Part shown: piece after piece, positions 1-58,309 of the stretch
Position numbering within the stretch: position 1 is the first letter of the stretch
How the letters are laid out: each line of letters starts with the position of its first letter
Position numbers and translations under genes: made by a program
From: Chlorophyllum brunneum
Taxonomy: Eukaryota > Basidiomycota > Agaricomycetes > Agaricales > Agaricaceae
DNA length: 64,000 nt
Assembly: GCA_963576785.1 (NCBI GenBank)
Contig: OY756148.1
Coordinates: 930,001-994,000 of the forward strand
Direction: 5' to 3'
Notes under the pieces: model-generated
Told to the model about the DNA's origin: nothing
The model's database searches: none
The model's input: the letters and a program-made list of their open reading frames with translations, nothing else

Positions 1-262
1 CATACCGAACTGGCTGCTGAGGAATGGGAAGCAACTCCGGGGTAGCGCCTGGGTGAAGTTGTGGACCGTAGCAGGTGATGTACCGGGGCATGCTGAAAAA
101 AGCCACCGGTTATCAGAGAATACTCATCTGGCTCGAGAGGACTAAATCCTACATTGGTTGGCCTAGTACAGGAAAAATAGCCAGGTTCCAGCTCAAGTTG
201 ATTCCATGTTACCATTGGCTAAGGCTGGTGGTAAGAGACCCCTCAAGGGGCTCTGTAGATGG
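1..262 (+). mobile_element. Module S, 3' part (cut by window edge)
   Basis: This is the last 262 nt of the repeat I call module S, recognised by close similarity to 15,450-16,336 and 22,114-22,997. It contains the GCATGCTGAAAAAAGC motif (about 88-103). It ends in the constant terminus with the inverted repeat GAG-ACCCC-TCAA-GGGG-CTC (about 236-254) followed by TGTAGATGGG. LINE-A sequence begins at the next base. The tRNA-like head lies outside the window. Confidence 0.8.
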
Positions 263-882
263 GTCACTCTGGTTAGGCTCATTCACTCGCCATGTGTAAC
301 ACCCTTATGGAGTGGTTTGGGAGTCACCCTGAATGCTCCCTTCATATCTGGCACACCTACTCTTTGGAGAAGTGGGCCATTCATGGTACCGTACATCAGT
401 ACTGTACCGAGCTACAAGTTGCTGCAGGTTCCCATCTGCAGACCTCCCTCAACTCCCTTTGTCAGAAGGTAGTCAAATCCTGCCAGGATGCCTGGATTAC
501 TTGATTTCAGGATCCTACTTACTCGGATAGCCAGTTCATGGCTCTCGAAGGGCGCAATGGTAAGCCCCTCCAGCCCACTTACCTCCATGGAGGTTCATGG
601 CTGCCTTCTGCTACAGCAGAGTCCAACTTGCTGTCCACCCACATGTGTAGGGTTATACTCAACCATGCGCCTATCGGGGCCTATAGGTCTCGATTCTTCC
701 AGGACAAACCATTCTGGTGTCCATGTGGGGCTCCTTTCGAGTCTTGTGTGCATATTCTTACCAACTGTAGTTGGTTTGACACCTCTAGGGGGTACCCTGC
801 CATGCCGGGTGCCCTCATCAAGTTCTTGAAAGTGAACCCTCAGGCGTTCACTTTCCCATCCGTTCCTCAGGGAATTGGATAA
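263..882 (+). pseudogene. LINE-A ORF2 C-terminus (RNase H end), one stop
   Basis: The fragment encodes the last about 205 codons of LINE-A ORF2: the end of the RNase H domain and the C-terminal Cys/His motif (CPCGAPFESCVHILTNC), with the normal terminal GIG-stop at 880-882. An in-frame TGA at 502-504 replaces the arginine (CGA) found in better copies, which is a CpG transition. No start codon belongs to it. It is a dead 5'-truncated copy. The reading in other frames is shadow. Confidence 0.85.
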
Positions 883-3536: not shown

Positions 3537-4413
3537 CCCGTCTACAGAGCCCCTTGAGGGGTCTCTTACCACTAGCCTTAGCCAATGGTAACGTGGAATC
3601 AACTTGAGCTGGAACCTGGCTATTTTTCCTGTACCAGGCCAACCGATGTAGGATTTAGTCCTCTCGAGCCAGGTGAGTATTCTCTGATAACCGGTGGCTT
3701 TTTTCAGCATGCCCCGGTACATCACCTGCTATGGCCCACAACTTCACCCAGGCGCTACCCCGGAGTTGCTTCCCATTCCTCAGCAGCCGGTTCGGTATGC
3801 CTTACGGCCCGGATTCCCGTGCTTAACTGTCTGAGATTTACACCTTGCAGACACTGCTACCAAATTGGTCCTGAGGTTATTTTAGTCAGCATTCTCAATC
3901 TGGAGATTGGGTTATATCTACTAACTACCGGAACTATGCTAAAGCGGACCGGGAGGGGTATCCTATCTCGGCGGCTTTTTTCAGCACACCCTGAGTTGGA
4001 CTGTTATTACAACATTCCCCTTCTTATAATGCCCCATCTCCAGCAGTGGCTTAGGTAATCCTCTCAAGTTAGGCCCCGGCATTAGGCACCACCACCTTTG
4101 GCCAATATTGGACTTGGGCGATGCACATAGCTGGGTCACACCGTGACAGTGTGACATCACTATGTGACTTGCTATGTGGCTGGGTGTAACAACTCCCATA
4201 CTAGCCTGTGACAGCACCAAACAATGCCAAATAGGACCACACAACCTAATCCAGTGTTACCCAGGAATATTGCTAAGCAACCACACCTTGTACACTGGTA
4301 CTTCCCACGGTTGAGAATAAATCCCCCCCCCACAGGTTTCAAACCCAGGACCTTCTAGTCAAGCAGCCTGGTAGGAATTAAGCCTATACCCAAACCACTC
4401 GACCATTAGGCCG
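3537..4413 (-). mobile_element. Module S, near full length
   Basis: An about 877-nt copy of module S in minus orientation. Its head (4,413 back to about 4,330) carries tRNA-like promoter boxes: A box TGGTCGAGTGG (complement of 4,395-4,405) and B box GGTTTGAAACC (4,335-4,345). Its 3' end (3,537) carries the CCCCTCAAGGGG hairpin and joins LINE-C. The GCTTTTTTCAGCA motif (plus-strand reading) occurs twice, near 3,697 and 3,975. The sense strand has no TTTT. It looks like a tRNA-derived SINE-like RNA captured by the LINE. Confidence 0.75.
4395..4405 (-). promoter_or_regulatory. tRNA-like A box of module S
   Basis: The minus strand reads TGGTCGAGTGG, close to the Pol III A box. It pairs with a B box at 4,335-4,345 (GGTTTGAAACC), 50 nt downstream in module orientation. 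Head position and recurrence in three copies support an internal Pol III promoter. Activity is not shown. Confidence 0.5.
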
Positions 4414-5356
4414 ACCTCTTTTTGGGGGGTGAGACCCTAAATCTCATGAATGTTTACTCTGATTCGGAGCACACTGCGATTTAGTTCCTTTCAGACCGAG
4501 CTACTACATTACCCAAACATATCTATATAGGCAGTGATTTCAATTGCCATTCTGAGTTATGGGACCCTAATTATGGCTCCCACTCAGGCATCTCGCAGTC
4601 CCTGATCTCCATCAGGACAGACATTGGCCTAGACCTCACCCTACTGGTCGAGCCTGGGCCTACTCACATTTTGCACAATGAGGATCTTCGGTCATTGGTC
4701 ATCGATCTTGCATTTCTTCCATCAGACCTGTCTATCTCGCATAGGCCTAGGTTGGATTACTCCCTTAGGGGTCCATCAGACCATGTTCTGCTGGTTCTGA
4801 TCCTTCCAGTCGTTCCCACAATTGTGGAGACTCACAGGAAAACCCTGCCACATGATGGTGGTGAAGAGGTAGTGCTCTTCCTCACTGATGTTATCCGGGA
4901 CCTCCGGGAAGTAACTAGACTTCCGGAACCTACTACCACTGATGAGGTTGAAGCTGTAGTTCATGCTGTGGCAGAGGCCTTTTCCACTGCATAGGAAGCC
5001 CATGCAGTGGACATCATGATCACTCGCCGCTCTAAGCCCTAGTGGAACCAGGAATGCCGTGAAACCTTCAGGAGATATCATGAGACTTGTTCTCACAATG
5101 ACTACTCTAATTTTAGATGTGCTAAGAAGTGCGCTAAGTGCAACTTCTTTGATGCTTGCATCGAGGAGATTGCTTCTACCAACAAGCGACCATGGGACCT
5201 TATGGAATGGGTCCAGAAGCAGAAGCTTCCACCCTGTGAGGCTATCCAGTACAATGGAGAGCCATGTCATGCACTCCTGGATCTCTGGGATGCACTTCAC
5301 AATACTTACAACTTGGCCTCTGGCCAAGCTGTGGATATTTCTGTTCTTGATCTGCT
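4414..5356 (+). mobile_element. LINE-C copy C1, left part
   Basis: The left half of a decayed LINE-C, beginning inside the endonuclease domain and interrupted after CTGTTCTTGATCTGCT (5,341-5,356) by the S-LINE-A1 insertion. It resumes at 12,112 with CTGTTCTTAATCCACT, a 16-bp target duplication with three later transitions. CpG loss is heavy. The left end abuts the head of module S without any LINE 5' end, so it is truncated or rearranged there. Confidence 0.85.
4414..5356 (+). pseudogene. LINE-C ORF2, endonuclease C-terminal half (C1)
   Basis: The sequence encodes the GDFN-equivalent block (changed to SDFN near 4,532), the DLAF block and the SDH motif near 4,776, then the linker up to V-L-D before the RT. 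Stops include a TAG near 4,993 and another near 5,041 (TGG to TAG). It is a dead copy. Homology to C3 (44,894-48,766) is clear across the whole stretch. Confidence 0.8.
5341..5356. repeat. Target-site duplication of S-A1 (left)
   Basis: CTGTTCTTGATCTGCT; its partner is at 12,112-12,127 (CTGTTCTTAATCCACT, 13 of 16 identical, differences all transitions). The pair restores continuous LINE-C coding when the S-A1 unit is removed. Confidence 0.8.
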
Positions 5357-11289: not shown

Positions 11290-12111
11290 CCCGTCTACGG
11301 AGCCCCTTGAGGGGTCTCTTACTACCAGCCTTAGCCAATGGCGATGTGGAATCAACTTGAGCTGGAACCTGGCTATTTTTCTTGTACCAGGCCAACCGAT
11401 GTAGGATTTAGTCCTCTCGAGCCAGGTGAGCATTCTCTGATAACCAGCGGCTTTTTTCAGCATGCCCCGGTACATCACCTGCTACAGCCCACAACTTCAC
11501 CCAGGCACTGCCCTGGAGTTGCTTCCCATTCCTTAGCAGCCGGTTCGGTATGCCTTACGGCCCGGATCCCTGTGCTTAACTGTCTGAGATCTACACCTTG
11601 CAGACACCACTACCAGATTGGTCCTGAGGTTATTTTAAGCCAACTTAGTCAGTATCCTCAATCTGGAGATTGGGTTATGTCTACTAACTACCAGAACTAT
11701 GCCAAAGCGGACCAGGAGGGGTATCCTATCTTGGCAGCTTTTTTTAGCACACCCCGAGTCGGACTGTTATCACGACATTCCCCTTCTTATAATGCCCTAT
11801 CTCCAGCAGTGGCTTAGGTAATCTTCCCAAGTTAGGCCCCGGTATTAGGGCACCACCTTTGGCCAATATTGGACTTGGGCAATGCATACAGCTGGATCAC
11901 ACCATGACAGTGTGATGTCACTATGTGACTTGCTATGTGGCTGGGTGTGACAACTCCCACGCTAGCCTGTGATAGCACCAAATAATGCCAAACAGGACCA
12001 CACAACCTAATCCAGTGTCACCCAGGAATATTGCTAAGCAACCACACCTTGTGCACTGGTACTTCCTACGGTTGAGAATAAATCCCTCTCCACAGGTTTC
12101 AAACCCAGAAC
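11290..12111 (-). mobile_element. Module S, head-truncated
   Basis: Module S in minus orientation fused to A1. Its 3' end (11,290) has the usual CCCCTCAAGGGG hairpin. Its 5' end stops inside the head just upstream of the B box (GGTTTGAAACC, about 12,095-12,105), so the A box is gone. It is followed directly by the right target duplication CTGTTCTTAATCCACT (12,112-12,127). This shows that the module end is the 5' end of the integrated unit. Confidence 0.8.
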
Positions 12112-14532
12112 CTGTTCTTAATCCACTGCCAAGTCTTCTGGCTAGGGAGTGGGTCCATTTCTTAGCCTTAGAGCTGATGGATGCCCTGAGCACTTGCTCG
12201 GGTGTGTCCACCCCAGGGCCGGACCACGTAATGTGGACCCACCTCAAAGAGATCACCGAGGACCCCAATATTCTTCGGCTATTCATCGGGATAGCTAATG
12301 CCTGCATGTGTGTGGGTCATGGGCCATCCCATTTCAAGGAGAGCTTGTCGGTTATTATACCAAAGCCAGGCAAGCTATCCTACTCAACGCCCAAGGCATT
12401 CAGGCCCATTGTGCTCCTGAACACCTTTGGTAAACTTATTGAGAAGATGATCTCGAATCACCTCCAGTTTGACTCTGTCAAACATGGAGTTTTTCATCCA
12501 AATCAGCTCAGTGGCATCTATCAGAGGTCCACTGATGATGCTGGAATGCTCCTAACCCATATCGTTTGCGCAGGGTAGGCCAAGGGCCTCAAGACTAGTG
12601 TTGTTGCTTTTGACATTGCTCAGTTTTTTCCTTTGCTCAACCACTCTATGTTGTTGGCAATTCTATGGATGCAAGGATTCGACCCCTGTGTGGGTAGATT
12701 CTTTGCCTCTTATTTAGTTGGCCACTCTACGCAGTATGCGTGGGGAGACCATAAGTCTGACCTCAGACAGGCAGATGTTGGGGTAGGTCAGGGCTCATCA
12801 CTCTCTCCTGTCCTCTCTGGCCTCTATCTCGCCCCCTTCATGAAACTCTATGATAGGGAGGCAATCACACTTGGGAGTACCCTTCTCTCATATGTCGATG
12901 ATGGCCTTGCCATTGCCCAGGCAAAAACCTGGGAACCTAATCTGGTATGCCTTAAGCAGGCATACCAGATTATATATTGCCTGACTACCTTGTTTGGACT
13001 TGCTGTCAAGCACAACAAGTCTGAAGTTTTTCATTTCTCCCGTAAGCGGGGAGATGACAACCCACTGCTGGATTTGGGGTATGCTCCCCATACTGGCAAT
13101 ACTCCGTTACGCCCTAAGACCCACTGGAGGTACTTGGGTTTTTTCTTCGATCACGCTCTTACCTTTAAGGAGCACGTTCGACATTATGCTACTAAGTCTC
13201 TGTCCATGGTCAAGGCCATGGGCACACTTGGTAACTCTTCACGGGGCCTCCTTCCTGTTCAGAAGAGGACTCTTTATCGCTCGTGCATGGTTTCTATTGC
13301 TACGTATGGGTTTCGACTCTGGTTTTATGAAGGTGCCCGTAACAAGACCCTTCTGAAACAACTTAACACTATGCAGCATAGAGCTGCATTGTGGATCACT
13401 GGTGCATTTCGCACCAGCCCTACCGGAGGAGCTGAGGCCTTGGCTGGCCTCATCCCTATCCACCTCCATCTCAAGAAACTGGCTACCTGTGCCATCCACA
13501 GGGTTGCCACACTTTCTGAGAACCACCCTGTTCACTCCGTTATAGGGCGTCAGTACATAGGGGACTGTGTTCCGCACCCCAGATTGATCGCTCTCATAAC
13601 TCCTGCTCAGGCAGTCAAGGTCAAAGGGCTGGTCACAGAGGCAAACTCTCATTTGCCAGAATTAATGGAGACATTCGAGCTGTTTGCGCTCGAAGCGTCA
13701 CCAGGTTCTCGTCTCCTAGGCCGCGTAGCAGTCCAGGTGACTTTTAAGACATATGACGCCTTGCTTGATGGAAACCCTGTGGGTTGTCAGGTGGATTTGC
13801 TCAATAATACCCTTCATGGGTATCGTGAGGATAGACAGGTTATCTACGCAGTGATGGATGCAAGTCTACCGCTGATTGGGGACTTCCAGGCAGTGTCTGC
13901 TGCCCACGTTTATAGGGGGACATGTTTGCTTCATGCAATGCATCACCCAGCTGGCAAGGTTACAGCCCCAGATGCTGAGCTTTTCACCATTTGTATGGCT
14001 TTGGGAATTGCTGCGGCAGTTTCTGAGGCTGTGCACATTGCGGTCTTTACAGACTCAATTGGTTCTGCCAAGTGAGCTCTTGACCCGTCCATATATTCTG
14101 GCCAGGAACATTCCCTGGCTGTGTGTCGTCTTCTGTTGGAATGGTTCAGGGATTGTCCTGACCATTCCCTCACTTTCTGGTCCATTCCATCTTTGGCAAA
14201 ATGGTCCATTCATCAGGAGGTGCATTTATTTGCCACCGACCTTTGAGTCGCCGCTGGACATTGTCCAGCAACGTCTATTGATTCATGGCATAAACTCAAC
14301 ATAGCAACTATCTAGAAGGCCTGGAAGGTTACCTTCCAGGATGCCTCTTATTGCGGTTCTAACTTAGTGTGGGGCTCCTCTGGAGACCCGCACTCATATT
14401 TTGTGCTCTTGTCCGTTGTACAAGAGACGTTGTGGCTTGCCAGTCTCTATTGACCAGCTAGTATCTTTCCTTAAGTGCAATCCTTCAGCGTTTGCGTTTA
14501 AGTCCAGTGCACCACTTGCGGGAGTTGGATAA
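12112..14532 (+). pseudogene. LINE-C ORF2 RT and RNase H (C1)
   Basis: The RT domain shows KLSYSTPKAFRPI, FDIAQFFP, GVGQGSSLSP and YVDDG (near 12,895). RNase H follows with VMDASLP, DAELF and FTDSIGS. Breaks: TAG near 12,576, TGA at 14,073-14,075 where intact copies have CGA (AKR to AK-stop), TGA near 14,245 and a deletion near 14,366. The segment 12,633-14,075 is otherwise open for 480 codons. Confidence 0.85.
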
Positions 14533-14946: not shown

Positions 14947-15449
14947 CCCTTACACAGAGTCCCTTGTAGGCAAACTCCTAGCAGCCCAGAGATGGGGGTC
15001 TTGAGACGATATGTGCCCATAGAATGCCCAGCATGTTCCCAGGCCCCCATATTGGTGTCGCATCTGGCCATGTTGCGGGGACTTTGCTCCTCCCTCCTAA
15101 GAGGTAAAGCCTTTAGCTTGGGCGAACACCCTACTACTGAGAGAGCGCGGTATCCCTGAGGACTGGCCTGCTGTTCGCTTGAGGCATCCTTCCTATATGG
15201 TGCATGGATGGGATCTCACCGCTTGACTGTGCACATCGCCACCCCAAATCCAGACTACTTACATGGTATCAACTTAAACAAGTATACTCTGTTGTTGGCA
15301 GAGACCCATCGACGGAGGATCTAGACCTCTCGAGCCGGGCCGCTCCTTCTTGGTAACCGGGTGGCTTTTTTCAGCATGCTCCCAGTAAATGGCCTGCTAC
15401 AGTCCACTAGTTGGGTAGGCAGAGGCCACAAAGGCATACTTCCAAGGCA
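14947..15449 (-). repeat. Module E copy 1, part 1
   Basis: A repeat distantly related to the body of module S, read in the same direction as the LINE-C it is attached to (minus). On the plus strand it shows ACCTCTCGAGCCGGG, then GTGGCTTTTTTCAGCATGCTCCC near 15,361-15,383, as in S. It is split by the S-LINE-A insertion at 15,450-17,192 and continues at 17,193. I see no coding capacity and no tRNA-like head. Confidence 0.6.
15436..15449. repeat. Target-site duplication of S-LINE-A unit (left)
   Basis: ATACTTCCAAGGCA at 15,436-15,449; the partner follows the poly(A) at 17,192/17,193-17,205 (its first A is shared with the tail). Removing 15,450-17,192 rejoins module E so that it matches the second E copy near 19,620-19,650. 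Confidence 0.9.
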
Positions 15450-16336
15450 TATCGGCCTAATGGTCAAGTGGTTTGGGTGTAGGCTTAATTCCTACTAGGC
15501 TGCTTGGCTAGAAGGTCCTGGGTTCAAAACCTGGGAGGGGGATTTATTCTCAACCGTGGGAAGTACCAGTATGCAAGGTGTGGTTGCTTAGCAATATTCC
15601 CGGGTGACACCGGATTAGGTTGTGTGGTCCTGTTTGGCATTATTTGGTGCTATCACAGGCTAGCGTGGGAGTTGTCACACCCAGCCACATAGCAAGTCAC
15701 ATAGTGACATCACACTGTCACGGTGTGATCCAGCTGTATGCATTGCCCAAGTCCAATATTGGCCAAAGGTGGTGCCCTAATACTGGGGCCTAACTTGGGA
15801 GGATTACCTAAGCCACTGCTGGAGATAGGGCATTATAAGAAGGGGAATGTTGTGATAACAGTCCGACTCGGGGCATGCTGAAAAAAGCTGCCGAGATAGG
15901 ATACCTCTCCTGGTCCGCTTTGGCATAGTTCTGGTAGTTAGTAGACATAACCCAATCTCCAGATTGAGGATGCTGACTAAGTTGGCTTAAAATAACCTCA
16001 GGACCAATCTGGTAGTGGTGTCTGCAAGGTGTAGATCTCAGACAGTTAAGCACAGGGATCCAGGCCATAAGACATACCGAACCGGCTGCTGAGGAATGGG
16101 AAGCAACTCCGGGGTAGTGCCTGGGTGAAGTTGTGGGCCATAGCAGGTGATGTACCGGGGTGTGCTGAAAAAAGCTGCCGGTTATCAGAGAATGCTCACC
16201 TGGCTCAAAAGGACTAAATCCTACATCGGTTGGCCTGGTACAGGAAAAATAGCCAGGTTCCAGCTCAAGTTGATTCCACGTCGCCATTGGCTAAAGCTGG
16301 TGGTAAGAGACCCCCTCAAGGGGCTCCGTAGATGGG
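15450..16336 (+). mobile_element. Module S, complete copy
   Basis: The best-defined module S, about 887 nt. It starts with TATCGGCCTAATGG directly after a target duplication and ends with the hairpin terminus GGGGCTCCGTAGATGGG. The head has A box TGGTCAAGTGG (15,461-15,471) and B box GGTTCAAAACC (15,521-15,531). The body carries GCATGCTGAAAAAAGC-like motifs near 15,874 and 16,160. There is no TTTT on the sense strand. The antisense strand has a 159-codon open frame (15,808-16,287) that I do not consider a gene. Confidence 0.85.
15461..15531 (+). promoter_or_regulatory. tRNA-like Pol III promoter (A and B boxes) of module S
   Basis: TGGTCAAGTGG and GGTTCAAAACC, 60 nt start to start, within 85 nt of the module 5' end. 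Spacing is long for a tRNA but possible for a type with a long variable arm. The match is by eye, and transcription is inference. Confidence 0.55.
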
Positions 16337-16658
16337 TAAGCCCCTCCAGCCCACTTACCTCCATGGAGGTTCGTGGCTGCCTTCTGCCACAGCAGAGTCC
16401 AACTCGCTGTCCACCTGCATGTGTAGGGTTATACTCAACCATACGCCTATCAGGGCCTATAGGTCTCGATTCTTCCAGGACAAACCATTCTAGTGTCCAT
16501 GCGGGGCTCCTTTCGAGTCTCGTGTGCATATTCTTACCAACTGTAGTTGGTTTGACACCTCTAGGGGGTACCCTGCCACGCCGGATGCCCTCGTCAAGTT
16601 CTTGAAAGCAAACCCTCAGGCATTCGCTTTCCCATCCGTTCCTCAGGGAATTGGATAA
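16337..16658 (+). pseudogene. LINE-A ORF2 last about 105 codons
   Basis: Encodes the C-terminal end of LINE-A ORF2 with the Cys/His motif near 16,497-16,545 and the terminal GIG-stop (16,656-16,658). A TAG near 16,490 replaces the TGG of FWCPC. There is no start codon and no catalytic residue. It is carried passively as part of the LINE 3' end. Confidence 0.75.
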
Positions 16659-17192
16659 CTGGCTTAGGGTAGGTGGGTTATTGTCCAGCGTCAGAGAACT
16701 CTGGCGAAAGTCTGGTGAAGACCATCGGAGTTTTATGAATGGAGTTGTCCCCTTTGGCGACTAGGTGTGGTAAAGACGCCAATAGCCACACAAATGGTGT
16801 GGCCGATTACTCTGGCAAGGGTGACCGTGGCCGGGGGGTCGACTCTCAGTAAGAAGAACTCTGGGGGCTAGTAACCAGACCAGTAACTGGGGTGTTTCCA
16901 CTGCTGGGCATTTACAGTAAATTAACACCTACTGACTGGGCCTGGTTTTCGGACTGGGTCACTGGTTGGGGGACCTCCCTGCCCACTCACCTCTTCTGGC
17001 ATCCACTCGGGAGTAGGATGCAATTCCTCCTACTATTGGTCCTGGGCAACGGTACTTTTGCTTGGTAGGGCGTAATTACCACTTTCTCCATAGATACCCA
17101 CTAGTCTACTCTTTTGTATTCCGGCCGTGGGCTGTGTTTGAGCGCCACATAATAAATCGGCCTTAGGCCATGATTCAAAAAAAAAAAAAAAA
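16337..17192 (+). mobile_element. 5'-truncated LINE-A fused to module S
   Basis: The 3' about 840 bp of LINE-A with AATAAA (17,149-17,154), the terminal hairpin and poly(A) (about 17,177-17,192). It begins with TAAGCCCCTCC inside the ORF2 C-terminus. Together with module S it forms a 1.74-kb unit bounded by a perfect target duplication in module E. This is the clearest proof in the window that S plus LINE moves as one insertion. Confidence 0.9.
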
Positions 17193-17417
17193 TACTTCCA
17201 AGGCACAATCCCTGGACTAGCTTCCCGTTCCCCCACAGCCACTTTTGCAATGCCCTACCCCCAGAGGAGGTGACTTGTCTTTGGATGCGGATCCGTGTAC
17301 TAATACTGGTAGGGATCTCCGTCTTGCAGGGGGCACTACTAGGGTGGTGTTCACATTGGATCACATAAGCAACCCGCGGAATGGGTTACTAAGCAATCCA
17401 CGGAACAAGCGCCAATC
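17193..17417 (-). repeat. Module E copy 1, part 2
   Basis: Continuation of module E after the S-LINE-A insertion, homologous to 19,638-19,846. It is cut at GCCAATC (17,417) by the poly(T) of a minus-strand LINE-C. Confidence 0.6.
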
Positions 17418-19129
17418 TTTTTTTTTTTTTTTTAAATCAACATGTTTAAGGTGGTGAGGATTGCGCTTAAGGAAACCTACCAGCTGGTCAATAGAGACCG
17501 GCAGGCCACAACATCTCTTGTACAAAGGACAAGAGCACAAGATATGAGTGCGGGTCTCCAAAGGAGCCCCATACTTGCAGCCAATAGGCTCTAAAGGATG
17601 GAACTGGTAGCGATACTCTCCAGTCGGTGCATGCCCGAGAATGGCATGGTTCGCCCTCGTTGCAACAGACTGAGAGGGAAAGGAAGGAAGCCAAGAACTC
17701 CCATGGAGGTATGTTGGCTGTAACAGTTTGTTCTTACTGTCCTTGAGAGCAAGGAAGTTAGAACCGCAATAAGAGGAGTCCTGGAAAGTGACTTTCCAGG
17801 CCTTCTGAACAGTTGCTACACTGAGTTTGCACAGCAAATCAATAGACATCACTGGATGGCGTCCAGCGGCAACTTGGAGATCGGTGGCAAATATATGCAC
17901 ACCATGATGAATGGACCATTTTGCCGATGACGGAACGGACCAGAAAGTGAGGGAGCGGTTAGGACAATCCCTGAACCACTCCAACAAGAGACGACACACA
18001 GCCAGGGAATGTCCCTGGCCAGAATGTACGGACAGGTCAAGAGCTCGTTTGGCCGAACCAATCGAGTCCATAAAGACCGCGATATGTACCACCTCAGAGA
18101 CTGCTGCAGCAGTTCCCAAAGCCATACGAATGGCAAAAAGTTCAGCATCTGGGGCTGTAACCTTGCCAGCTGGATGACACATTGCACGAAGCAAATGTGT
18201 CCCCCTATAAACATGGGCAGCAGAAACGGCCTGGAAGTCCCCAACCAGTGGCAGACTTGCGTCCATCGCTGCATAGACAACCTGTCTATCCTCATGATAC
18301 CCACGAAGGGTATCGTTGAGCAAATCCACCTGACAACCCGTGGCGTTTCCACCAAGCGAGGCATCATACATTTTGTAAGTCACCTGAGCTGCGTAGTGGT
18401 CCAGGAGACGAGAACCTGGCGACGCTTCGAGCGCAAACGGCTTGAACGTCTCCGTTAAGTCTGGCAAACGAGAGTTTGCCTCTGTGACTGGCCCCTTGAC
18501 CTTGACCGCCTGAGTGGGGGTCATGAGAGCAATCGATCTGGGGTGTGGAGCACATCCCCTAATGTACTGACACCCCATAATGGAGCAAACAGGGTGATAC
18601 TCAGAAAGTGTGGCAACCCTGTGGATGGCATGGGTAGCCAGCTTCTTGAGATGAAGATGGACAGGGATGAGGCCAGCCAAGGCCTCAGCTCTTCCGGTGG
18701 GGCTGGTGCGGAATGCACCAGTGATCCACAATGCAGCCTTTCACTGCATAGTGTTAAGTTGTTTCAGAAGGGCCTTGTTGTGGGCACTTTCATAAAACCA
18801 GAGACAAAACCCATATGTAGCAATAGGAACTATGCACGAGCGATAAAGAGTCCTCTTCTGAGCAGGAAAAAGGCCTTGAGAGGAGTTACCAAGCATGCCC
18901 ATGGCCTTAACCATGGACAGAGACTTGGTAGCATAATGTCAAACGTGCTCTTTGAACATAAGAGTGCAATCGAAGAAAAAACCCAAGTATCTCCAGTGGG
19001 TCTTAGGGTGTAGCGGAGTGTCGCCGGTATGGGGAGCATACCCCAAATCCAGTGGTGGGTTGTTGTCTCCCCGTTTACGGGAGAAATGAAACACTTCGGA
19101 CTTGTTGTGCTTGACAGCAAGCCCAAATG
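17418..19129 (-). mobile_element. 5'-truncated LINE-C fused to module E
   Basis: Poly(T) 17,418-17,433, then the LINE-C 3' end. Most of the 3' UTR (about 270 bp) and the last about 15 codons of ORF2 are deleted near 17,458. ORF2 follows back to the middle of the RT. At 19,129/19,130 the sequence switches to CCCGCGTACGGAGCCCCTTG, the end of module E. This is the second E-LINE-C chimera, with a different LINE breakpoint from that at 14,946/14,947. Confidence 0.75.
17434..19129 (-). pseudogene. LINE-C ORF2 RT (C-terminal) and RNase H
   Basis: The minus strand reads the RT C-terminal part and RNase H. A 456-codon open stretch starts at 18,731. It keeps AAMDASLP, DAELFAI and VFMDSIGS (catalytic D, E, D) and the Cys/His motif CKYGAPLETRTHILC, in which the second Cys is Tyr. 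The true C-terminus is lost through the deletion near 17,458, and the open frame then runs into the tail. A TAG (CAG to TAG) lies just upstream near 18,744. No start codon belongs to this fragment. Confidence 0.75.
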
Positions 19130-20544
19130 CCCGCGTACGGAGCCCCTTGAGGGAATAAAGCTCCTAGAGGCCCAGAGATGGGGGTCTTGAGACGTTGTGT
19201 GCCCATAGAATGCCCAGCATGTTCCCAGGCTCCCATATTAGTGTCGCATCCGGCCATGTTGCGGGGACTTTGCCCCTCCCTCCTAAGAGGTAAAGCCTTT
19301 AGCTTGGGTGAACACCCTACTACTGAGAGAGCGCGGTATCCCTGAGGACTGGCCCGCCGTTTGCTTGAGGCATCCTTCCTATATGGTGCATGAACGGGAT
19401 CTCACCGCTTGACTGCACACGCCACCACCCCAAAACCAGACCTCTCGTATGGTAACAACTCAAATGGGTACACCCTGATCTTCACGGGAACCCACTGACA
19501 GAGGATTTTGACCTCTCGAGCCGGGCCACTCCTTCTCAGTAACCAGGCGGCTTTTTTCAGCGCGCTCCCAGTAAATGGCCCGCTATGGTCCACTAGTTGG
19601 GCAGGCAGAGGCCACGAAGGCGTACCTCCAAGGCGCGACCCCTGGACTAGCTTCCCGTTCCCCCGCAGCCGCTTTCGCTATGCCCTACCCCCAGAGGAGG
19701 TGACTTGTCTTTGGGCACGGATCCGCGTGCTAATACTGGCAGGAATCTCTGTCTCGCAGGGGGCACTACCAGGGTGGTGTTCACATTGGATCACATAAGC
19801 AACCCACGGAATGGGTTACTAAGCAATCCACAGAACAAGTGCCAATCAACCCGAGTTTCCCCAAGTCAACCCGAACCCGCCCGTGCCCTGGAGTTTGGTG
19901 TATCCCTACTAATGACCAGGCGCTACCCCCAGAGGGGTTCCCAAAGGCATGGTGACACTGGTGGGGGGTGGCCTGTCCTTTCAGTTGGCTTGTTATCACT
20001 CCATTCCCCCTATTATCATCCCCTATCCTTTCGGTCCCTTTTGGGTACGACAGGGTGGCTTTTTTCAGCATGCTCCCCACCGACATGCAAGCACAATTGG
20101 GGGTAGGCCTGGATGTCTGTCATCAGCCGGTATAGCCCAGCCTCGAGATACTAGCCAGACTTGACCTGCAGCAGGGGTAAAAACCCACATGCGAACCCTA
20201 TACGGGACTGCAAGCCCATCTCATTGGTAGAAGGGCCGCCACCACTGATGACCCAGCAAGTGCAAGTGAGCGAGGTGGCCAGTATCCCAGCCTTTACCAA
20301 GGGGCTGCCTCGTCGATCTGTGCATATAGGTATCAGTCAGATGAACGGTGGGGATATGCCCACCTTTAATTGCCTTTACCAAGGGCATGCCGCCTATTGA
20401 CTGACTAATGTTGCCACCCAGACCGCCCCCCTACAGCCAGCAAAGGCTCAGAAAAGACACGAGCCCATGAGAGAGAGCCCGAGAAATGAATGGTATGATG
20501 AGGAAAGGGAAGTAGAAAAGTGATAGTAGTGGTAACAAGTCAAG
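19130..20544 (-). repeat. Module E copy 2 (5' boundary uncertain)
   Basis: Module E fused to the LINE-C on its left. Its LINE-proximal end matches the module S terminus (CGGAGCCCCTTGAGGG). On the plus strand the GGCTTTTTTCAGC motif occurs near 19,548 and 20,049. From 19,600 to 19,800 it aligns loosely with the S body. It has runs of four or five A on the plus strand (near 19,436, 20,179 and 20,451), so unlike S it is not free of TTTT on its sense strand. From about 20,161 to 20,544 I recognise nothing and cannot tell module from host DNA. Confidence 0.5.
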
Positions 20545-21322
20545 GAGCGATGCGTATCACCCAGCTGGCAAGGTTACAGCCCCAGATACTGAACTGTTTG
20601 CCATTTATATGGCTTTGGGAACTGCGGCGGTTTCTGAGGCTGTACATATTGCGGTCTTTACAGACTCGATTGGTTCTGCCAAGTGAGCTCTTGACCCATC
20701 CATACATTCTGGCCAGAGACACTCCCTGGCTGTTTGTTGTCTCTTGTTGGAGTGGTTCAGGGATTGTCTTGACCATTCCCTCACTTTCTGGTCCGTTCCG
20801 TCTTCAGCAAAATGGTCCATCCATCAGGATGTGCATGTATTTGCCCCTGACCTTCAGGTTGCCACTGGACACTGTCCAGCGATGTCTATCAATGCGCTGT
20901 GTAAAGTCAATGTAGCAACTGTTCAGAAGGCCTGGAAGGTTACCTTCCAGGACTCCTCTTATCAGGGTTCGAACTTCCTTGTTCTCAAGGATAGCAAGAA
21001 CAAGGTTCTACAGCCAACGTACCTCCATGGAGGTTCTTGGCTTCCTTCTTTTCCCTCTCAGTCCATCGCGACAAGGGCAAACTGTGCCATTCTTGGGCAT
21101 GCACCAACTGGCGAGTACTGCTCCCGGTTCCATCCTCTAGAGCCTATCAGCTACGAGTGTAGGGCTCCTCTTGAGTCCCACACTCATATCTTGTGCTCTT
21201 GTGCTCTGTACAAGAGACATCATGGCCTGCCAGTCTCTATTGACCAGCTGGTAGATTTCCTTGAATGCAATCCCTTAGCATTTGTGTTCAAGTCCAACAC
21301 ACCACTTGTAGGCATTGGATAA
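20545..21322 (+). pseudogene. LINE-C RNase H and C-terminus
   Basis: Reads HPAGKVTAPD-TEL, AVFTDSIGS and the C-terminal ECRAPLESHTHILC region, ending in VGIG-stop at 21,320-21,322. An in-frame TGA at 20,684-20,686 sits at exactly the codon that is TGA in C1 (14,073-14,075) and CGA in better copies. The first catalytic Asp is upstream of the truncation. Confidence 0.8.
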
Positions 21323-21760: not shown

Positions 21761-22113
21761 GAATGGACCAAAGCCCAAGTCAAGGGGGGGGTTCACATCT
21801 CCAGGCTTCCTGGAGAAGTGGAAAAGTTCGGACTTGTCATGCTCCATGACAAGCACAAATGCTACGAAAAGATAAAAGAGAACAATGGACACCCCCTTGA
21901 GGGTGTCCAAGTTCTCATCCCAGGTCTTAGCCTGGGTGACAACAGTACCATTGTCGATGTAAGATAGCAGAGTACTCCCAGGGGAAGTAATCCACATATC
22001 GAAGACCTTCATAAGAGGGGTGAGATGGAGGCCAGAGAGGATAGGGGACAGGGCAGAGCCCTGTCCAATACCTACATCTGCACCCCAGGGATCAGAGGAG
22101 AAGCTGTTCCATG
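21761..22113 (-). pseudogene. LINE-A RT fragment (catalytic motif lost)
   Basis: A minus-strand fragment of the LINE-A RT around the active site. It reads VGIGQGSALSPIL and then SYIDNG where active copies have SYVDDG, so the second catalytic Asp is Asn. Frame 21,743-22,129 is open but has no ends of its own. It is cut on the right by module S at about 22,113. Confidence 0.75.
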
Positions 22114-22997
22114 TTGGCCTAATAGTCAAGTGGTTTGGGTGTAGGCTTAATTCCTACCAGGCTGCTTGGCTAGAAAGTCCTGGGTTCAAAACTTTGGGGG
22201 GGGATTTATTCTCAACTGTGGGAAGTACCAGTGCACGAGGCGTAGTTGCTTAGCAATATTCCCGGGTGACACCGGATTAGGTTGTGTGGTCCTATTTGGC
22301 ATTGTTTGTGCTGTCACAGGCTAGCGTGGGAGTTGTCACACCCAGCCACATAGCAAGTCACATAGTGACATCACACTGTCACGGTGTGACCCAGCTATGT
22401 ACATCACCCAAGTCCAATATTGGCCAAAGGTGGTAGTGCCTAATGCTGGGGCCTAACTTGGGAGGATTACCTAAGCCACTGCTGGAGATAAGGTATTATA
22501 AGAAGGGGAATGTCGTGATAACAGTCCGACTCGGAGCATGCTGAAAAAAGCTGCCGAGATAGGATACTCCTCCCGGTCCACTTTGGCATAGTTCCGGTAG
22601 TTAGTAGACATAACCCAATCTCCAGATTAAGGATGCTGACTAAGTTGGCTTAAAATAACCTCAGGACCAATCTGGTAGCGGTGTCTGCAAGGTGTAGATC
22701 TCAGACAGTTAAGCACAGGGATCCAGGCCATAAGGCATACCAAACCGGCTGCTGAGGAACAGGAAGCAACTCCGGGGTAGTGCCTGGGTGAAGTTGTGGG
22801 CCGTAGCAGGTGATGTACTGGGGTGTGCTGAAAAAAGCTGCCGGTTATCAGAGAATGCTCATCTGGCTCGAAAGGACTAAATCCTACATCGGTTGGCCTG
22901 GTACAGGAAAAATAGCCAGGTTCCAGCTCAAGTTGATTCCACGTTGCCATTGGCTAAGGCTGGTGGTAAGAGACCCCTCAAGGGGCTCCATAGATGG
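22114..22997 (+). mobile_element. Module S, near-complete copy
   Basis: An 884-nt copy with A box TAGTCAAGTGG (22,123-22,133) and B box GGTTCAAAACT (22,183-22,193). It shows the two GCATGCTGAAAAAAGC-type motifs and the hairpin terminus ending CTCCATAGATGG. No TTTT occurs on the sense strand. It joins LINE-C at 22,997/22,998. The antisense 159-codon frame is cut to 107 here. Confidence 0.8.
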
Positions 22998-23284
22998 ACC
23001 CCTGCTAGCTTCCCATGTCTCTGGCATATGTAGGAGTTAATTGCAAATTGACGCATACTCTCCCTAGGGAGGGGAGGCTAGGGGTTGCTTGTTTTTCTGG
23101 TCTAGGATTCACGCGCCCATGCGTGTTTCTGCGATCATTCACCCAGACCACCTGTCGGCGGTCTTGTTCGGCCAGGGGAGAGCCAATCTTCGATTACCCT
23201 CTTCTTGTAGCCTACATGTCACAGTAGATACAGGTGGACTGCGACCGTGCACCACCTTAAACATGATGATTTAAAAAAAAAAAA
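22998..23284 (+). mobile_element. LINE-C 3' UTR tail fused to module S
   Basis: 287 bp of pure LINE-C 3' UTR plus poly(A) (23,273-23,284) behind module S. It contains no ORF2, so this S-LINE-C unit (22,114-23,284) has the layout of a SINE with a LINE-derived tail. The poly(A) meets GCAAGGGTTAGCAGAG of a minus-strand LINE-A ORF1, the mirror image of the junction at 25,225. Confidence 0.8.
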
Positions 23285-42810: not shown

Positions 42811-42812
42811 GA

Positions 42813-42840
42813 CGCTTCTTGATTTGGTACTTCCACCAGT
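42813..42840 (+). promoter_or_regulatory. Conserved 5'-terminal block of LINE-C
   Basis: The first bases of C3 (CGCTTCTTGATTTGGTACTT...) match the first bases of LINE-A A3 at 20 of 28 ungapped positions, although the rest of the UTRs do not align. A conserved LINE 5' end is a candidate internal promoter/initiator. Function is inferred. Confidence 0.4.
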
Positions 42841-42936
42841 AAACAAGCGTAAACAAATCGTCCTCATCATCCTAACCGTTGTACTCGCTTGTTTCGGTGT
42901 CCTAGTCCTCTAGGAATACACCCGCGGCTTTTCCGC

Positions 42937-44901
42937 ATGTCATCGCAACACCCATTCGGCGGGGGGGCCAGGCGCCAAGTCCCTGAGTCCCCCGACACTC
43001 TCGATACCATCCGTGGGTCCTCAACAGGACCTATCCGCCGTCAGCGCGAATCTAGTCGTTCTAGAGGGCCGCCTGACATTCTCCAAACTCCCACTGGTAG
43101 GAGGGGTTCACGCAACCCTTCACGCGCAACCTCGCCATCGCCTGGGCCCGCTGTGGAGGATTTTGGCAAGTTAGGAGGGTTCGACGAAGATCCCATGACT
43201 CCCCCTCAGGGCCTTACCCCCAGCGCACCTAGCCCTGCGCCCTCCTCCTCCAGCTCTTCGTCCCCGTACTCCTGCCATCTTCTGAACACTGTCGAAAGTG
43301 TTGCAGGGGACCTCGAAGCGGCCTCGGACTCGCTGGACATCATCTCCACCTTCCTTAACAAGACGGTGGAGAATATCGACTGGACTACCCTCCCGGGAAA
43401 GTTGGTCTACCCCCTTGCACGATCGATTATTCGGTTGTGTAAGGCTATCGACGACAGTGGATGGTCCACTGTCGAACTTGGCTTCGGGATGCCTTCTGTT
43501 GGCACCGTCCTGAGCGCATCTTTGGGTCTGGCCCCCGCCGTTCCCGCCCCTCTGCCTCCTGCTCCCCGTACTCCTCCAGTACCGAGAGCTCGAGTTACTC
43601 CCCAGCCTCCCCAGGCTGGATCTCCCCCCCAGGACCCTGACGTTCCGATGCCGGGTCCAGAGGGTGCTCCCAGCGGTTCTCGCCCAGGAGGGGTGGGACC
43701 GTCTCCTCTTACGGACAGAGGAACCTACCAGCGCAAGCCGGTGGCTCCCCCTGCTCCTTCTACTCCAGCTACCAAGCAAGGGAACAAGAGAACGTTCTCT
43801 GCGGTAGCCAAGGAGCCTGTCCCCAAACCAAAAGGAAAGGGGAAGGCGACTACGGCGTCGGGGACTGTTGTGCAGCTTGCACAAATGTTCCCCTTGCTTC
43901 CTCCGGACAGGATTCTCGCCATGGGCGAGCAAGCCTCCCCTCCTAAATCCAAAGCTTCTAATAAGAGGCCCAGGATGACCACCGCTGGCCCCTCACGGCG
44001 CCAGTTAATCATTGACTTCGAGGTTGCCCCCGAAGTCTCCTCGTTCCACCTCGAAACCATGGTTAACCGTGGCTTCGTGGACTCACGCCTCCACATTCAA
44101 GTAGAGTCTACCTCTGCCGAGTATGGGGGCTTTGCTCTGCGTACCAATGCTGTCCCCACCCCTGCCGACCTCGAGGTCGCCAGGACGTGGATCTCGAAGG
44201 CCGTCCCTCAGGGAACTGTGTTTACAGTGGGCCTTCCTCAGTCGAAGTCCTACCTCAAGGTCATCGACGTCCCCTTCTTCAGGATAGGCGAAACTCGCTG
44301 GTCCTCATTCGAAATCGAACAGATCATGAAGCGCACTGCGTTTTCTGACCTGTTCACGTTAACGGGGCCCCCCCGTATCTCAAGGAACTCCGAGGCGTCT
44401 GATACCGCCACGGTGTACTTCAATATCCATGACTCTCAAAAGGGTCAGCGGGCGAATCTCCTTCTCAAGAAGTCGCTCCATATCGGTGGATATGCCTGTT
44501 CTATCAGGCCGTCCGCAGCCTCCCCGGGGGTGTCTCAGTGCAAGCGATGCTTTCATTGGGGCCACCCCATGCAATTCTGCAAGGCGCAGGCCTTGAAATG
44601 CCCGACCTGTGGTGGTCCTCATCGCGAGGAGCATCACTGAACTCTCTGTGGGCGCTGCAAGGGTAACTCCAATGTGCAGCCCCCTATTCCTCCCACACCG
44701 GCGGAAGAGCCTTGTCCTCATACGCCGCGTTGTCTCAACTGTCGGGGTCCCCACCATACGACCTCGAAGAAGTGCAAGTTCTTTGACGCTCGGTTCGAAC
44801 CCGAGAAGATTAAGAAGTTTTATCGCGAGGTGAGTAACAACCGTCTTCGGCGGCAATCTCCCCTCACCAACCCTCGTACTCTACAGCTTGCCAATGAATA
44901 G
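42937..44901 (+). pseudogene. LINE-C ORF1 of C3 (gag-like, CCHC), one stop
   Basis: A 654-codon gag-like frame from MSSQHPFGG (42,937) to TAG 44,899-44,901. It has a Ser/Pro/Arg-rich N-terminus, a proline-rich middle, an RRM-like-length central region, and knuckles CKRCFHWGHPMQFC (about 44,539-44,580), CPTCGGPHREEHH and CLNCRGPHHTTSKKC. A single TGA at 44,638-44,640 (codon 568; CGA in C2) lies between the knuckles and would yield a protein with only the first knuckle complete. The role is RNA binding in the retrotransposition particle. Confidence 0.93.
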
Positions 44902-47900
44902 GCGACCTCTAGAACTACGTAGCATCAGATTGTACCAACAGAATCTTAACAAAAATTATGATTTATTGGACACATTACTTGAGGACCTCAAAGATCACTT
45001 TGATGTTCTCTTTATTCAGGAACCTCCCTGGCGGTTCATTAGATCCGCTCCCTCCACAACTTCTGTTGAGGGGGACGACGTTATTGGCGCCCCCAAGCAT
45101 CCCGAGTGGCTGTGCATGGTTCGGGCCCCGGAGCCTGGCTCTGACCCACGGGTTATGACATTTGTCCATAACTGGTTGTCTTCTTTGAGGCCGTCCTATC
45201 GGACGGATCTCATCAATCACCATGACATCATGGTTCTCTCCCTCTTTTTGGGGGGCGAGACCCTGAATCTCATGAACGTTTACTCTGATTCGGAGCACAC
45301 AGCAATACGGTTCCTTGTGGACCGGGCTGCCACATTGCCCAGACATGTCTATATAGGTGGCGATTTCAATTGCCATTCTGAGCTATGGGACCCTAATTAT
45401 GGCTCCCACTCAGGTACCTCGCAGTCTCTGATCTCCATCGGGACAGACATCGGTCTAGACCTCGCCCTTCCGGTTGAGCCTGGGCCTACTCACATTCCAC
45501 ACAATGAAGATCTTCGTCCGTCGGTCATCGATCTTGCATTTGTTCAATCAGACCTGTCTATCTCCCATAGACCCAGGTTGGATTACTCCCTTAGGGGTCC
45601 GTCAGACCACGTTCCACTGGTTCTGACGTTGCCAGTCACTCCCATGATAGTGGAGGCTCACAGGAAAACCCTGCCGCATGATGGTGGCGAAGAGGTAGCG
45701 CTCTTCCTCACTGATATTGTTCGGGACCTCCGTGAAGTAGCTAGACTTCCGGAACCTACCACTACTGATGAGGTTGAGGCTGCGGTTCACGCCGTGGCAG
45801 AGGCCTTTTCCACCACGTGGGAAGCCCATGCAGTGGACATCATGATCACTCGCCGCTCTAAACCCTGGTGGAACCAGGAATGCCGCGAAACTTTCGGGAG
45901 ATATCGTGAAACTCGCTCTCACGATGACTACTCTAACTTTAGATGTGCTAAGAAGCGCGCTAAGCACAACTTCTTTGATGCTCGCATCGAGGAGATTGCT
46001 TCTACGAACAAGCGACCGTGGGACCTCATGGAATGGGTCCAAAAGCGGAAGCTTCCACCCTGCGAGGCTATCCAGTACAATGGAGAGCCATGTCACGCAC
46101 TCCCGGATCTCTGGGATGCACTCCACAATACCTACAATTCGGCTTCTGGCCGAGCTGTAGATGTTTCCGTTCTTGATCCGCTGCCCAGCCTTACGGCTCG
46201 GGAGTGGGTCCACTTTTCAGCCTTAGAGCTGATGGACGCCCTTAGCGCATGCTCGGGTGTGTCCGCCCCGGGGCCGGACCACATAACGTGGACCCACCTC
46301 AAGGAGATCACCGAGGACCCTGATGTCCTTCGGCTATTCATCGGGATAGCCAATGCCTGCATGAGTGTAGGTTATTGGCCGTCCCATTTCAAGGAAAGCT
46401 TGTCGGTTATCATACCGAAGCCGGGCAAGCCATCCTATTCAACGCCCAAGGCGTTCAGACCCATTGTGCTCTTGAACACCTTCGGTAAGCTCATCGAGAA
46501 GATGATCTCGAATCGCCTCCAGTTTGACTCTGTCAAACATGGAGTTTTTCATCCAAATCAGCTCGGTGGTATCCATCAGAGGTCCACTGATGATGCTGGG
46601 ATGCTCCTAACCCACATCGTTCGCACGGGGTGGGCCAAGGGCCTCAAGACTAGTGTTGTCGCGTTTGACATCGCTCAGTTCTTTCCTTCGCTCAACCACT
46701 CTATGTTGTTGGCGATTCTACGGAAGCAAGGATTCGACCCCTGTGTGGGTAGATTCTTTGCCTCTTATTTGGTTGGCCGCTCTACGCAATATGCGTGGGG
46801 GGACCACAAGTCTGATCTCAGACAAGCGGACGTTGGGGTCGGTCAGGGCTCTTCGCTCTCTCCTGTCCTCTCCGGCCTCTATCTTGCTCCCTTCATGAAG
46901 CTTTATGATAGGGAGGCAATCGCTCTTGGGAGCACTCTGCTCTCATACGTCGACGATGGCCTTGTCATCGCCCAAGCTAAAACTTGGGAACCTAATTTGG
47001 TGTGTCTAAAGCAGGCGTACCAGGTTATTTATCGCCTGACCACTTCGTTTGGGCTTGCCGTTGAGCACGACAAGTCCGAAGTTTTTCATTTCTCCCGTAA
47101 ACGGGGAGATGACAACCCACCGCTGGATCTGGGGTATGCTCCCCATACCGGCGATACTCCGCTTCGCCCTAAGACCCATTGGAGGTACTTGGGCTTTTTC
47201 TTCGATCGCGCTCTTACGTTTAAAGAGCACGTTCGGCATTACGCTACTAAGTCTCTGTCCACGGTCAAGGCCATGGGCATGCTTGGTAACTCTTCGCGAG
47301 GCCTTCTTCCTATTCAGAAGAGGACTCTGTACCACTCGTGCGTAGTACCTATCGCTACGTATGGGTTTCGACTCTGGTTTTATGAAGGGGCCCGTAATAA
47401 GGCCCTTCTGAAACAACTTAACACTATGCAATGTAAAGCTGCATTGTGGATCACTGGTGCATTTCGCACCAGTCCTACCGGAGGAGCTGAGGCCTTGGCT
47501 GGCCTCATCCCCATCCACCTTCATCTCAGGAAGCTAGCTGCCCGTGCCGTCCACAGGGTGGCTACGCTTGCTGATAATCACCCTGTTCGTTCCGTTATGG
47601 GGTGTCAGTATGTAGGGGACTGTGTTCCACACCCCAGATCGATCGCCCTCATGACCCCCGCCCAGGCGGGTAAGGTCAAGGGGCCGGTCACGGAGGCAAA
47701 CTCTCATTTGCCAGACCTAACGGAGACATTCGAGCCGTTTGCGCTCGAGGCGTCGCCAGGTTCTCGTCTCTTGGACTGATTCTCGGCCCAAGTGACTTAT
47801 AAGACGTATGACGCCTCGCTCGGTGGAAACCCTGTGGGTCGCCAGGTGGATTTGCTCAACGATACCCTTCGTGGGTATCGAGAGGATAGACAGGTTGTCT

Positions 47901-48766
47901 ACGCAGCGACGGACGCGAGTCTGCCGCTGGTTGGGGACTTCCAGGCAGTTTCTGCTGCCCACGTTTATAGGGGGACACGGTTGCTTCGCGCAACGCGTCA
48001 CCCAGCTGGCAAGGTTACAGCCCCAGATGCTGAACTGTTTGCCATTCATATGGCTTTGGGGACTGCCGCGGCAGTCTCCGAGGCTGTACACATTGCGGTC
48101 TTTATGGACTCGATTGGTTCTGCCAAGCGAGCTCTTGACCCGTCCGTGCACTCAGGCCAGGGTCATTCCCTGGCGGTGTGTCGTCTGTTGTTGGATTGGT
48201 TCAGGGATCGCCCTGACCGCTCCCTCACCTTCTGGTCCGTTCCGTCATCAGCGAAATGGTCCATTCATCAGGATGTGCATGTATTTGCCACTGATCTTCA
48301 GGTTGCCGCCGGACGTCGTCCGGCGACATCTATTGACTCGCTGCGTAAAATCAACGTGGCAACTATACAGAAGGCCTGGAAAGTCACTTTCCAGGACTCC
48401 GCGTATCGCGGTTCGAACTTCCTTGCTCTCAAGGATAGTAAGGACAAGGCGTTACAGCCAACGTACCTCCACAGGGGTTCTTGGCTTCCTTCTTTTCCCT
48501 CTCAGTCTGTCGCGACGAGAGCGAACCGTGCCATTCTCGGGCATGCTCCAACCGGTGAGTATCGCTCCCGGTTCCATCCTCTAGAGCCTATTGGCTGCGA
48601 GTGTGGGGCTCCTTTGGAGACTCGCACTCATATCTTGTGCTCTTGTCCTCTGTACAAGAGACGTCGTGGCCTGCCGGTCTCCGTTGACCAGCTGGTATCT
48701 TTTCTTAAGTGCAACCCTTCTGCGTTTGCGTTTAAGTCCAACACACCGCTTGCGGGAGTTGGATAA
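44894..48766 (+). pseudogene. LINE-C ORF2 of C3 (EN-RT-RNase H), one stop
   Basis: 1,290 codons from ATG 44,894, overlapping the ORF1 stop. APE endonuclease: IQEPPWRF (residue about 41), GDFNCHSELWDP (about 155), SDH (about 237). RT: KPSYSTPKAFRP (about 511), FDIAQFFPS (about 588), GVGQGSSLSP (about 649), YVDDG (about 684). RNase H: ATDASLP (about 1005), DAELFAI (about 1043), FMDSIGS (about 1069). Zinc-like CECGAPLETRTHILC (about 1234). The only break is a TGA at 47,777-47,779 just before RNase H, which would separate EN-RT from RNase H. It cuts the target and primes reverse transcription. Confidence 0.95.
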
Positions 48767-49070
48767 CGCAGGGCGGCCCCTGCTAGCTTCCCACGTCTCT
48801 GACGTGTGTAGAAGTTAATTGCGAATTGACGCATACTCTCCTTAGGGAGGGGAGGCAAGGGGTCGCTCTATATATTTGGTCTAGGATTCACGCGTCCGTG
48901 TGTGTTTCCGCGACCATACACCCAGACCGCCTGTCGGCGGTCTAGTTCGGCCAGGGGAGAGCCAATCTTCGTGTACCTTTCTTTGTAGCCTACATGTCAC
49001 AGTAGATACAGGTGGACTGCGATCGCGCACCACCTTAAACATGACGATTTAAAAAAAAAAAAAAAAAAAA

Positions 49071-51789: not shown

Positions 51790-51792
51790 CAT

Positions 51793-51820
51793 CGCCTCTT
51801 TTCCCGGAACTCCCACCTGT
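51793..51820 (+). promoter_or_regulatory. Conserved 5'-terminal block of LINE-A
   Basis: CGCCTCTTTTCCCGGAACTC... at the element start recurs at 23,483 (A2) and at 37,421 (A3, minus) and resembles the LINE-C start. Candidate promoter element; function inferred. Confidence 0.4.
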
Positions 51821-51919
51821 CGATCACATGATCACCCCTTCGTCGATACTCTTAACGTCCTACACGTCCAAGACAGTGAGCGCTTCTAGCGCGGACTTCC
51901 GTACGGGCCCCTAGCCCCC

Positions 51920-58291: not shown

Positions 58292-58309
58292 AAAAAAAAA
58301 AAAAAAAAA

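Follow-up and report, generated by a model that had tools for sequence, protein, structure and literature searches.

A module with a tRNA-like head joined to truncated LINEs at short sequence motifs in an agaric genome

At the locus described here, a module with a tRNA-like head runs directly into a LINE that has lost its 5' part. How does such a composite come into being, and what decides where in the LINE the join falls? The locus lies in a 64,000-nucleotide stretch of DNA (the window, C10:930001-994000), a nest of LINEs within the genome of 38.9 Mb on 14 contigs that we examined. An initial annotation had described a copy of the module, here called S, followed by a 5'-truncated LINE-A with poly(A) and bounded as a whole by a 14-bp duplication, and all of this was confirmed (Table 1). 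The further S-LINE junctions that it reported in the window are real, each at a different LINE position as it had claimed; two of them, given as 262/263 and 22997/22998, lie one base further on, at 263/264 and 22998/22999. The focal unit had inserted into another module, S2: the two halves of the interrupted copy, both on the minus strand, flank the unit and overlap by 12 bases of the duplication. The protein of LINE-C, the other main partner in the window, has its closest named relatives in Cyclocybe, Candolleomyces, Psilocybe and other agarics.

Table 1. Features of the window. A or C before a number denotes a position in the LINE-A or LINE-C reference.
Feature	Position	Strand	Remarks
Left target-site duplication ATACTTCCAAGGCA	15436..15449	+	14 bp
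Module S, full length	15450..16336	+	5' end ATCGGCC, preceded by an additional T; 3' end ...TAGATGGG
tRNA-Leu(UAA)-like head with A-box- and B-box-like blocks	15452..15542 (limits approximate)	+	Decayed here; ARAGORN call on CpG-restored consensus
LINE-A 3' part	16337..17176	+	First base is LINE-A position 5649; reference ...AACGG^TAAGCC
Poly(A) tail of focal unit	17177..17192	+	
Right target-site duplication ATACTTCCAAGGCA	17192..17205	+	14 bp
S2 copy hit by the focal unit, one half	14972..15448	-	S2 919-1395
Interrupted S2 copy, other half	17193..17417	-	S2 706-930
S, 3' part	1..263	+	Extends upstream beyond the window; joined to LINE-A at 263/264 (A5352)
S	3537..4414	-	Joined to LINE-C at 3537/3536 (C5484)
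S, from its position 64 on	11290..12113	-	Joined to LINE-A at 11290/11289 (A347)
S	22113..22998	+	Joined to LINE-C at 22998/22999 (C5966); last S base mutated
Second module S2	19129..20552	-	1424 nt; joined to LINE-C (parent CTT^C)
LINE-A reference, full length	51790..58309	+	Without S
LINE-C reference, full length	42812..49070	+	Without S

We then looked for the ends of S in the whole genome. A pattern for the 3' end matched 73 places and its reversed control none; because the focal copy escapes this pattern through one extra C in its tail, there are at least 74 copies. The 5'-end pattern also gave 73 matches, with none for its control. The 3' end consists of TAGA and four further bases (TGGG in 30, CGGG in 26, CAGG in 12 and others in 5 of the 73 pattern-found ends, from which copies with another 3' end would be missing). 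At the 5' end, where 63 of the 73 matches have a readable flank, the bases before GGCC are G in 55 and A in 7 at -3, T in 61 at -2, and mixed at -4; S starts with RTYGGCC. Some copies are themselves shortened. A short form without about 444-707, between two GTGCTGAAAAAAGC repeats, was read in two copies (on C5 and C6), and the spacing in two more copies on C9 also suggests it. Matches to S occur on C1-C13; on most contigs the bulk of them lies inside a single region of 0.1-0.2 Mb and others are scattered, but C12 has no clear cluster. The clusters of S and nested LINEs look like centromeres. Outside the main clusters, several of the scattered copies are on LINE-D.

Every one of the 73 pattern-found 3' ends is followed by sequence of a retrotransposon, with weaker evidence for a few. 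The arrangement is that of MINE-type chimeras, full-length S being fused directly, and in sense, to a 5'-truncated LINE. The partner is LINE-A at 32 junctions, LINE-C at 29 and neither at 12, so that the range comprises LINE-A, LINE-C, at least two more LINE types and, once, S2. In 10 of those 12, tblastn of the 260-1500 bases downstream found a match to LINE-type proteins (E at most 1e-4), and in seven a sense match starts at most 40 bases downstream (C8:1936975, C8:1960786, C9:1954661, C12:1605841, C6:43274, C1:4575442 and C9:1959897). The match at C12:261288 is weak (E 7e-5); at C5:1345488 the sole protein match is antisense and non-adjacent, and the adjoining part resembles a portion of the C1:4575442 flank at 87%. 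The copy at C4:2544314 adjoins S2 and then LINE-C. C8:1988241 and C8:1944232 gave no protein match, and their DNA is 92% and 82% like other LINE-D copies. The junction at C12:1694912 is a weak case in which the alignment starts only at base 24. This copy (-) and that at C12:1694416 (+) have S 3' ends that point towards each other across about 500 bases and continue into identical first LINE bases, like an inverted duplication.

Duplications of 11-16 bp span S, the LINE part and the tail in 13 of the 43 copies with a readable S 5' end; their scores are 10.8-16, versus a maximum of 8.0 in 258 mismatched controls. No duplication was found in the remaining 30, of which 13 were compared over at most 1.5 kb downstream and 17 over more; later insertions and decay may be the reason in these 17. 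One S2-LINE unit likewise lies inside a target duplication, and at C4:2544314 a single duplication of 14-16 bp surrounds a triple of S, S2 and LINE-C. Because the duplications enclose the whole unit, a single target-primed insertion of S together with its LINE part is established. This agrees with the initial annotation, which had proposed that the composite inserted as one unit, the 3' end of S being constant and the LINE breakpoint differing between copies. Neither of the two outcomes that it had named as counting against its reading was observed: there are about 56 breakpoints among 71 readable junctions, not one shared breakpoint, and the 3' ends found by the pattern, 73 in number, lead into a LINE or S2 rather than lying apart from LINE junctions.

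To read the parental site of each junction, we aligned relatives of the LINE part that extend upstream of the break, which gave a readable site at 71 of the 73 junctions (C11:841465 and C12:1694912 have no readable parental LINE). A site was called CG-type when CG, TG or CA, the last two being decay products of CG, stood at -3/-2 in at least 75% of relatives. By this rule 66 of the 71 junctions and 51 of the 56 distinct sites are CG-type, against a background of ~19% for the three dinucleotides combined (binomial p about 1e-41); true CG occurs in at least one relative at 63 of 71. The proportion is 27/28 on LINE-C, 28/31 on LINE-A and 11/12 on other partners, and the rule holds too where S joined S2 in the C4:2544314 triple. 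Two of the five exceptions (C5:1299129 and C12:1605841) align poorly. The base at -1 is mostly A (A 45, G 11, T 11, C 4; 71 junctions) and that at +1 is G only once (C 38, T 23, A 11, G 1; 73 junctions), and the consensus of the S junction is CGA^H. In 53 distinct, well-aligned sites the information is confined to -3, -2, -1 and +1, the 38 other columns being flat. The three parental bases before the break are absent from the joined product. Two copies in which S ends elsewhere, at 818 and 838, are joined at non-CGN sites with 2-3 bases shared with the LINE by eye, as ordinary microhomology would give.

The second module provides a comparison on the same LINE. S2 is 1424 nt long and has fixed ends. 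Across the genome its 3' end is matched 39 times and its 5' end 73 times, the latter with a shorter pattern that in reversed form still matched twice. Ten readable junctions of S2 on LINE-C lie at nine sites: CTT^C, CTC^T, CCA^C, CTT^C, CTC^T, nTT^T (twice, one site), CCT^C, CCT^T and CCA^T. None of these ten is CG-type, versus 27 of 28 for S on LINE-C (p about 2e-8). That the site rule of S2 differs from that of S is firm; its exact form, CYN^Y, is provisional because ten junctions are few and one site is shared. S2 has two tail types, with mostly CT versus mostly CC at -3/-2, which may differ in site (five readable junctions each, one site common to both).

The two modules share a 3' stretch of 18 identical bases, CCCTCAAGGGGCTCCGTA, and a 93-column region at 75%, and the tails of both end in CGGG. 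The first bases of S2, CATCGCTCCTTGACTTG, are similar to those with which full-length LINE-A and LINE-C begin, and by this likeness S2 may be LINE-derived at its 5' end. Each module contains two copies of a short hairpin, GTGCTGAAAAAAGC, whose loop is A-rich (at ~420-445 and ~700-725 of S, and at ~480-500 and ~985-1005 of S2). It is absent from the rest of the sequence examined and could serve to attract a poly(A)-binding protein or a protein of the LINE. In one case, C3:2325390 (107-346 of the locus), the first 240 nt of S2 and three extra bases lead into LINE-A. The S2 piece ends at the CGA-type site where S joined S2 elsewhere, and could be a released 5' piece reused as acceptor.

As a control, we considered truncated LINEs that are bounded by duplications and lack S. 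Seven of 15 rows were kept; in six of the eight others the "left duplication" is LINE sequence, one is an S2-LINE unit and one has an unmapped start, and none of the eight passes the 75% CG-type rule. By that rule one of the seven is CG-type, versus 66 of 71 for S (Fisher p 1.2e-5), and at least one in seven would arise by chance with a probability of 0.77. The row that passes, LINE-A 5932, has CA in 22 of 23 relatives and never CG. With a looser rule, requiring CG in at least one relative, again one of seven passes (C5344, 1 of 29 relatives; Fisher p 7.4e-5). Judged by hand, none of the seven fits the S2 motif. Because S2 uses another motif on the same LINE-C, and because truncations without S are at chance level, the join site seems to depend on the acceptor RNA and not on pausing of the reverse transcriptase alone.

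Several simple origins of the S motif were considered and rejected. Ribosome stalling at CGA codons does not fit, as LINE-C breaks occur in all three codon phases and some breaks lie past the end of the LINE-A ORF. Pairing of the S 5' end, GUCG, with CGAC would suit S but would predict GATG at the S2 junctions, where it was not seen. Between S ...ACGGG and the CGA of the LINE, microhomology is one base out of register, and the LINE A is not kept.

What, then, is S? Compared with a consensus in which CpG sites were restored, 37 full copies carry 1467 substitutions; C>T and G>A changes make up 1422 of these, 964 at CpG. Because the copies differ almost only by this C-to-T decay, the source sequence must have been essentially invariant, pointing to one source RNA behind the copies. 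The tRNA-like head noted in the initial annotation reappears in this restored consensus, in which ARAGORN calls tRNA-Leu(taa) at positions 2-92; in the window itself the program found 0 tRNA genes. By its sequence, S has the kind of tRNA-derived polymerase III promoter head that characterizes tRNA-derived SINEs, a putative promoter from which RNA polymerase III would probably transcribe it. Its tail is without the T-run expected at a polymerase III terminator. A search of Rfam with one S copy returned nothing up to E 10, and hence no known small nuclear RNA of the U6-L1 type; S2 gave only two sub-threshold matches, and neither module matched a family of self-splicing introns or known ribozymes. 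Among the 73 pattern-found 3' ends we saw no S with its own tail, either poly(A) or LINE-like, and no solo copies with duplications. No undecayed or solo source was present among the 40 candidates scored out of 112, the top one being 97% identical to the restored consensus, and every S place listed among the scored candidates proved to be an already known copy. The antisense of S holds a 160-codon open frame on the minus strand, which may be chance. As one part of the explanation that we favor, with confidence a little above even, S would be a noncoding RNA of ~889 nt with a tRNA-Leu-like head, a predicted 3' hairpin and the 3' end ...ACGGG.

Our preferred reading, to which we lean without great assurance, is that S rides on the 5' side of LINE insertions by an end-to-end jump of the reverse transcriptase from CGA^H onto the 3' end of S RNA. 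The LINE machinery would nick the target and reverse transcribe LINE RNA starting at the poly(A). On reaching a template end at CGA^H, the enzyme would make an end-to-end jump to the GGG at the 3' end of S RNA; it would then copy S to its 5' end, and resolution of the insertion would leave one duplication around S, the LINE 3' part and the poly(A). The join itself is probably a jump during reverse transcription, with S, or something bound to S, presumably causing the stop or cut at CGA^. The reverse transcriptase of R2 is reported to make end-to-end jumps, after one or two untemplated bases (PMC8857657). Against a jump stand the full-length LINE starts, none of which is preceded by an S 3' end among the 10 LINE-A and 7 LINE-C starts listed, even though a jump would be possible from a natural 5' end as well. 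The initial annotation had proposed a reverse transcriptase that leaves the LINE RNA and jumps to a second RNA. This is incomplete: a jump alone leaves unexplained why the same LINE-C is joined at CGA^ with S and at CYN^Y with S2, and why S-less truncations fit neither motif beyond chance.

The explanation given for MINE, in which the LINE reverse transcriptase pauses or falls off at a motif and jumps to any available RNA, meets the same difficulty. Pausing was proposed for GCC^A/U (PMC2104539), and around the breaks in LINE-C predicted folding slightly exceeds in strength that of other CGN sites (p 0.06 upstream, 0.07 downstream). At LINE-A breakpoints, however, predicted folding is no different from that at other CGN sites (p 0.83 and 0.78), and the two motifs on LINE-C, together with the chance level in S-less truncations, argue against pausing as the only cause, provided that the samples of S2 and S-less junctions, both small, are not misleading. 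We consider this explanation improbable. Even less credible to us is an amplification, driven by the S promoter, of a single old S-LINE composite or a small number of them. Some breakpoints do recur (C4832, C5484 and C5966), and in 2 of 12 same-site pairs the partner carries the closest S (C6:2732407/C6:2744555 and C10:933537/C4:2467974, where C4:2467974 is one of the two least decayed S copies). Nevertheless, the partner is not the closest S in the other 10 pairs, the 71 junctions fall at 56 distinct sites, and none of 25 comparable copies has S contiguous with LINE sequence on both sides.

A stronger competitor, although we would still bet against it, is joining at the level of RNA: LINE RNA would be cut at CGA^H (CYN^Y for S2), its 3' part attached to the 3' end of either module by ligation or transesterification, and the chimeric RNA retrotransposed. 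This would account for the acceptor-dependent sites and for the loss of three bases from the product, as a sequence-specific cut would leave, and for U6-L1 chimeras RNA ligation has been considered as one of two possible mechanisms (PMC13174262). However, no nuclease, ligase or ribozyme of such specificity was identified, Rfam included, and ligation should also reach other RNAs, whereas S 3' ends were found only on retrotransposon sequence; a cis preference could hide this. A broader and more tentative idea, which we think doubtful, is that S and S2 are a class of RNAs, each specifying a short target in retrotransposon RNA (CGA^ and CYN^Y) and joining itself to the 3' part: RNA-programmed 5' hitch-hikers of LINEs. 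They might even be regenerated from S-LINE transcripts by cutting at the join, and that no source gene was found would then follow.

Whichever way the join is made, S can be set beside several known kinds of element. In tRNA-derived SINEs, a tRNA-like head with A and B boxes leads a non-autonomous element that LINE machinery spreads. S resembles them in all of these respects; unlike them, it is without a LINE-like 3' tail or its own poly(A), was not found in solo copies, and would enter as a second template. Mammalian U6-LINE-1 and other RNA-LINE-1 chimeras are closer in form, with a full-length 5' RNA in sense, a truncated LINE 3' part, target duplications and the use of several LINE clades (PMC4476161, PMC13174262). 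Unlike these RNAs, S is joined at a strict site motif; it is also much longer, and all copies found are in chimeras. A module shared between LINE families, which the initial annotation had thought novel, is not new in itself, since U6 has formed chimeras with the L1, L2 and RTE clades according to PMC4476161.

We judge the closest known system to be MINE of Magnaporthe, as the initial annotation had suggested. MINE is WEIRD-MGL, accompanied by WEIRD-MgSINE and a WEIRD-MgSINE-MGL triple; 33 chimeras at 28 sites are described, the motif is GCC^A/U and a solo WEIRD was not found; the authors, who saw no microhomology, propose pausing of the reverse transcriptase (PMC2104539). As in MINE, a full-length noncoding RNA of ~1 kb is fused to a variably 5'-truncated LINE, the unit is surrounded by duplications (10-20 bp in MINE), a triplet motif lies just 5' of the breakpoint, sites recur, a tripartite case exists (here at C4:2544314) and no solo copy of the RNA was found. 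In contrast, the GCC^A/U motif is absent here, the triplet being CGA for S, a site rule new here, or CYN for S2; two 5' RNAs with different site rules occur in one genome; at least four LINE types are used, where the MINE paper names MGL and the LINE Enigma (PMC2104539); S has a tRNA-Leu-like head, and the word tRNA is absent from the main text of that paper; and the host is an agaric rather than an ascomycete. Literature searches, judged by titles and the starts of abstracts, returned no report of such chimeras in a mushroom or other basidiomycete. The triplet motif of MINE stayed unexplained beyond its ascription to pausing (PMC2104539), and two 5' RNAs with different motifs shift the explanation towards the acceptor RNA. 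Non-autonomous RNAs of this kind would spread by capping the 5' side of LINE insertions, as opposed to copying the LINE 3' end.
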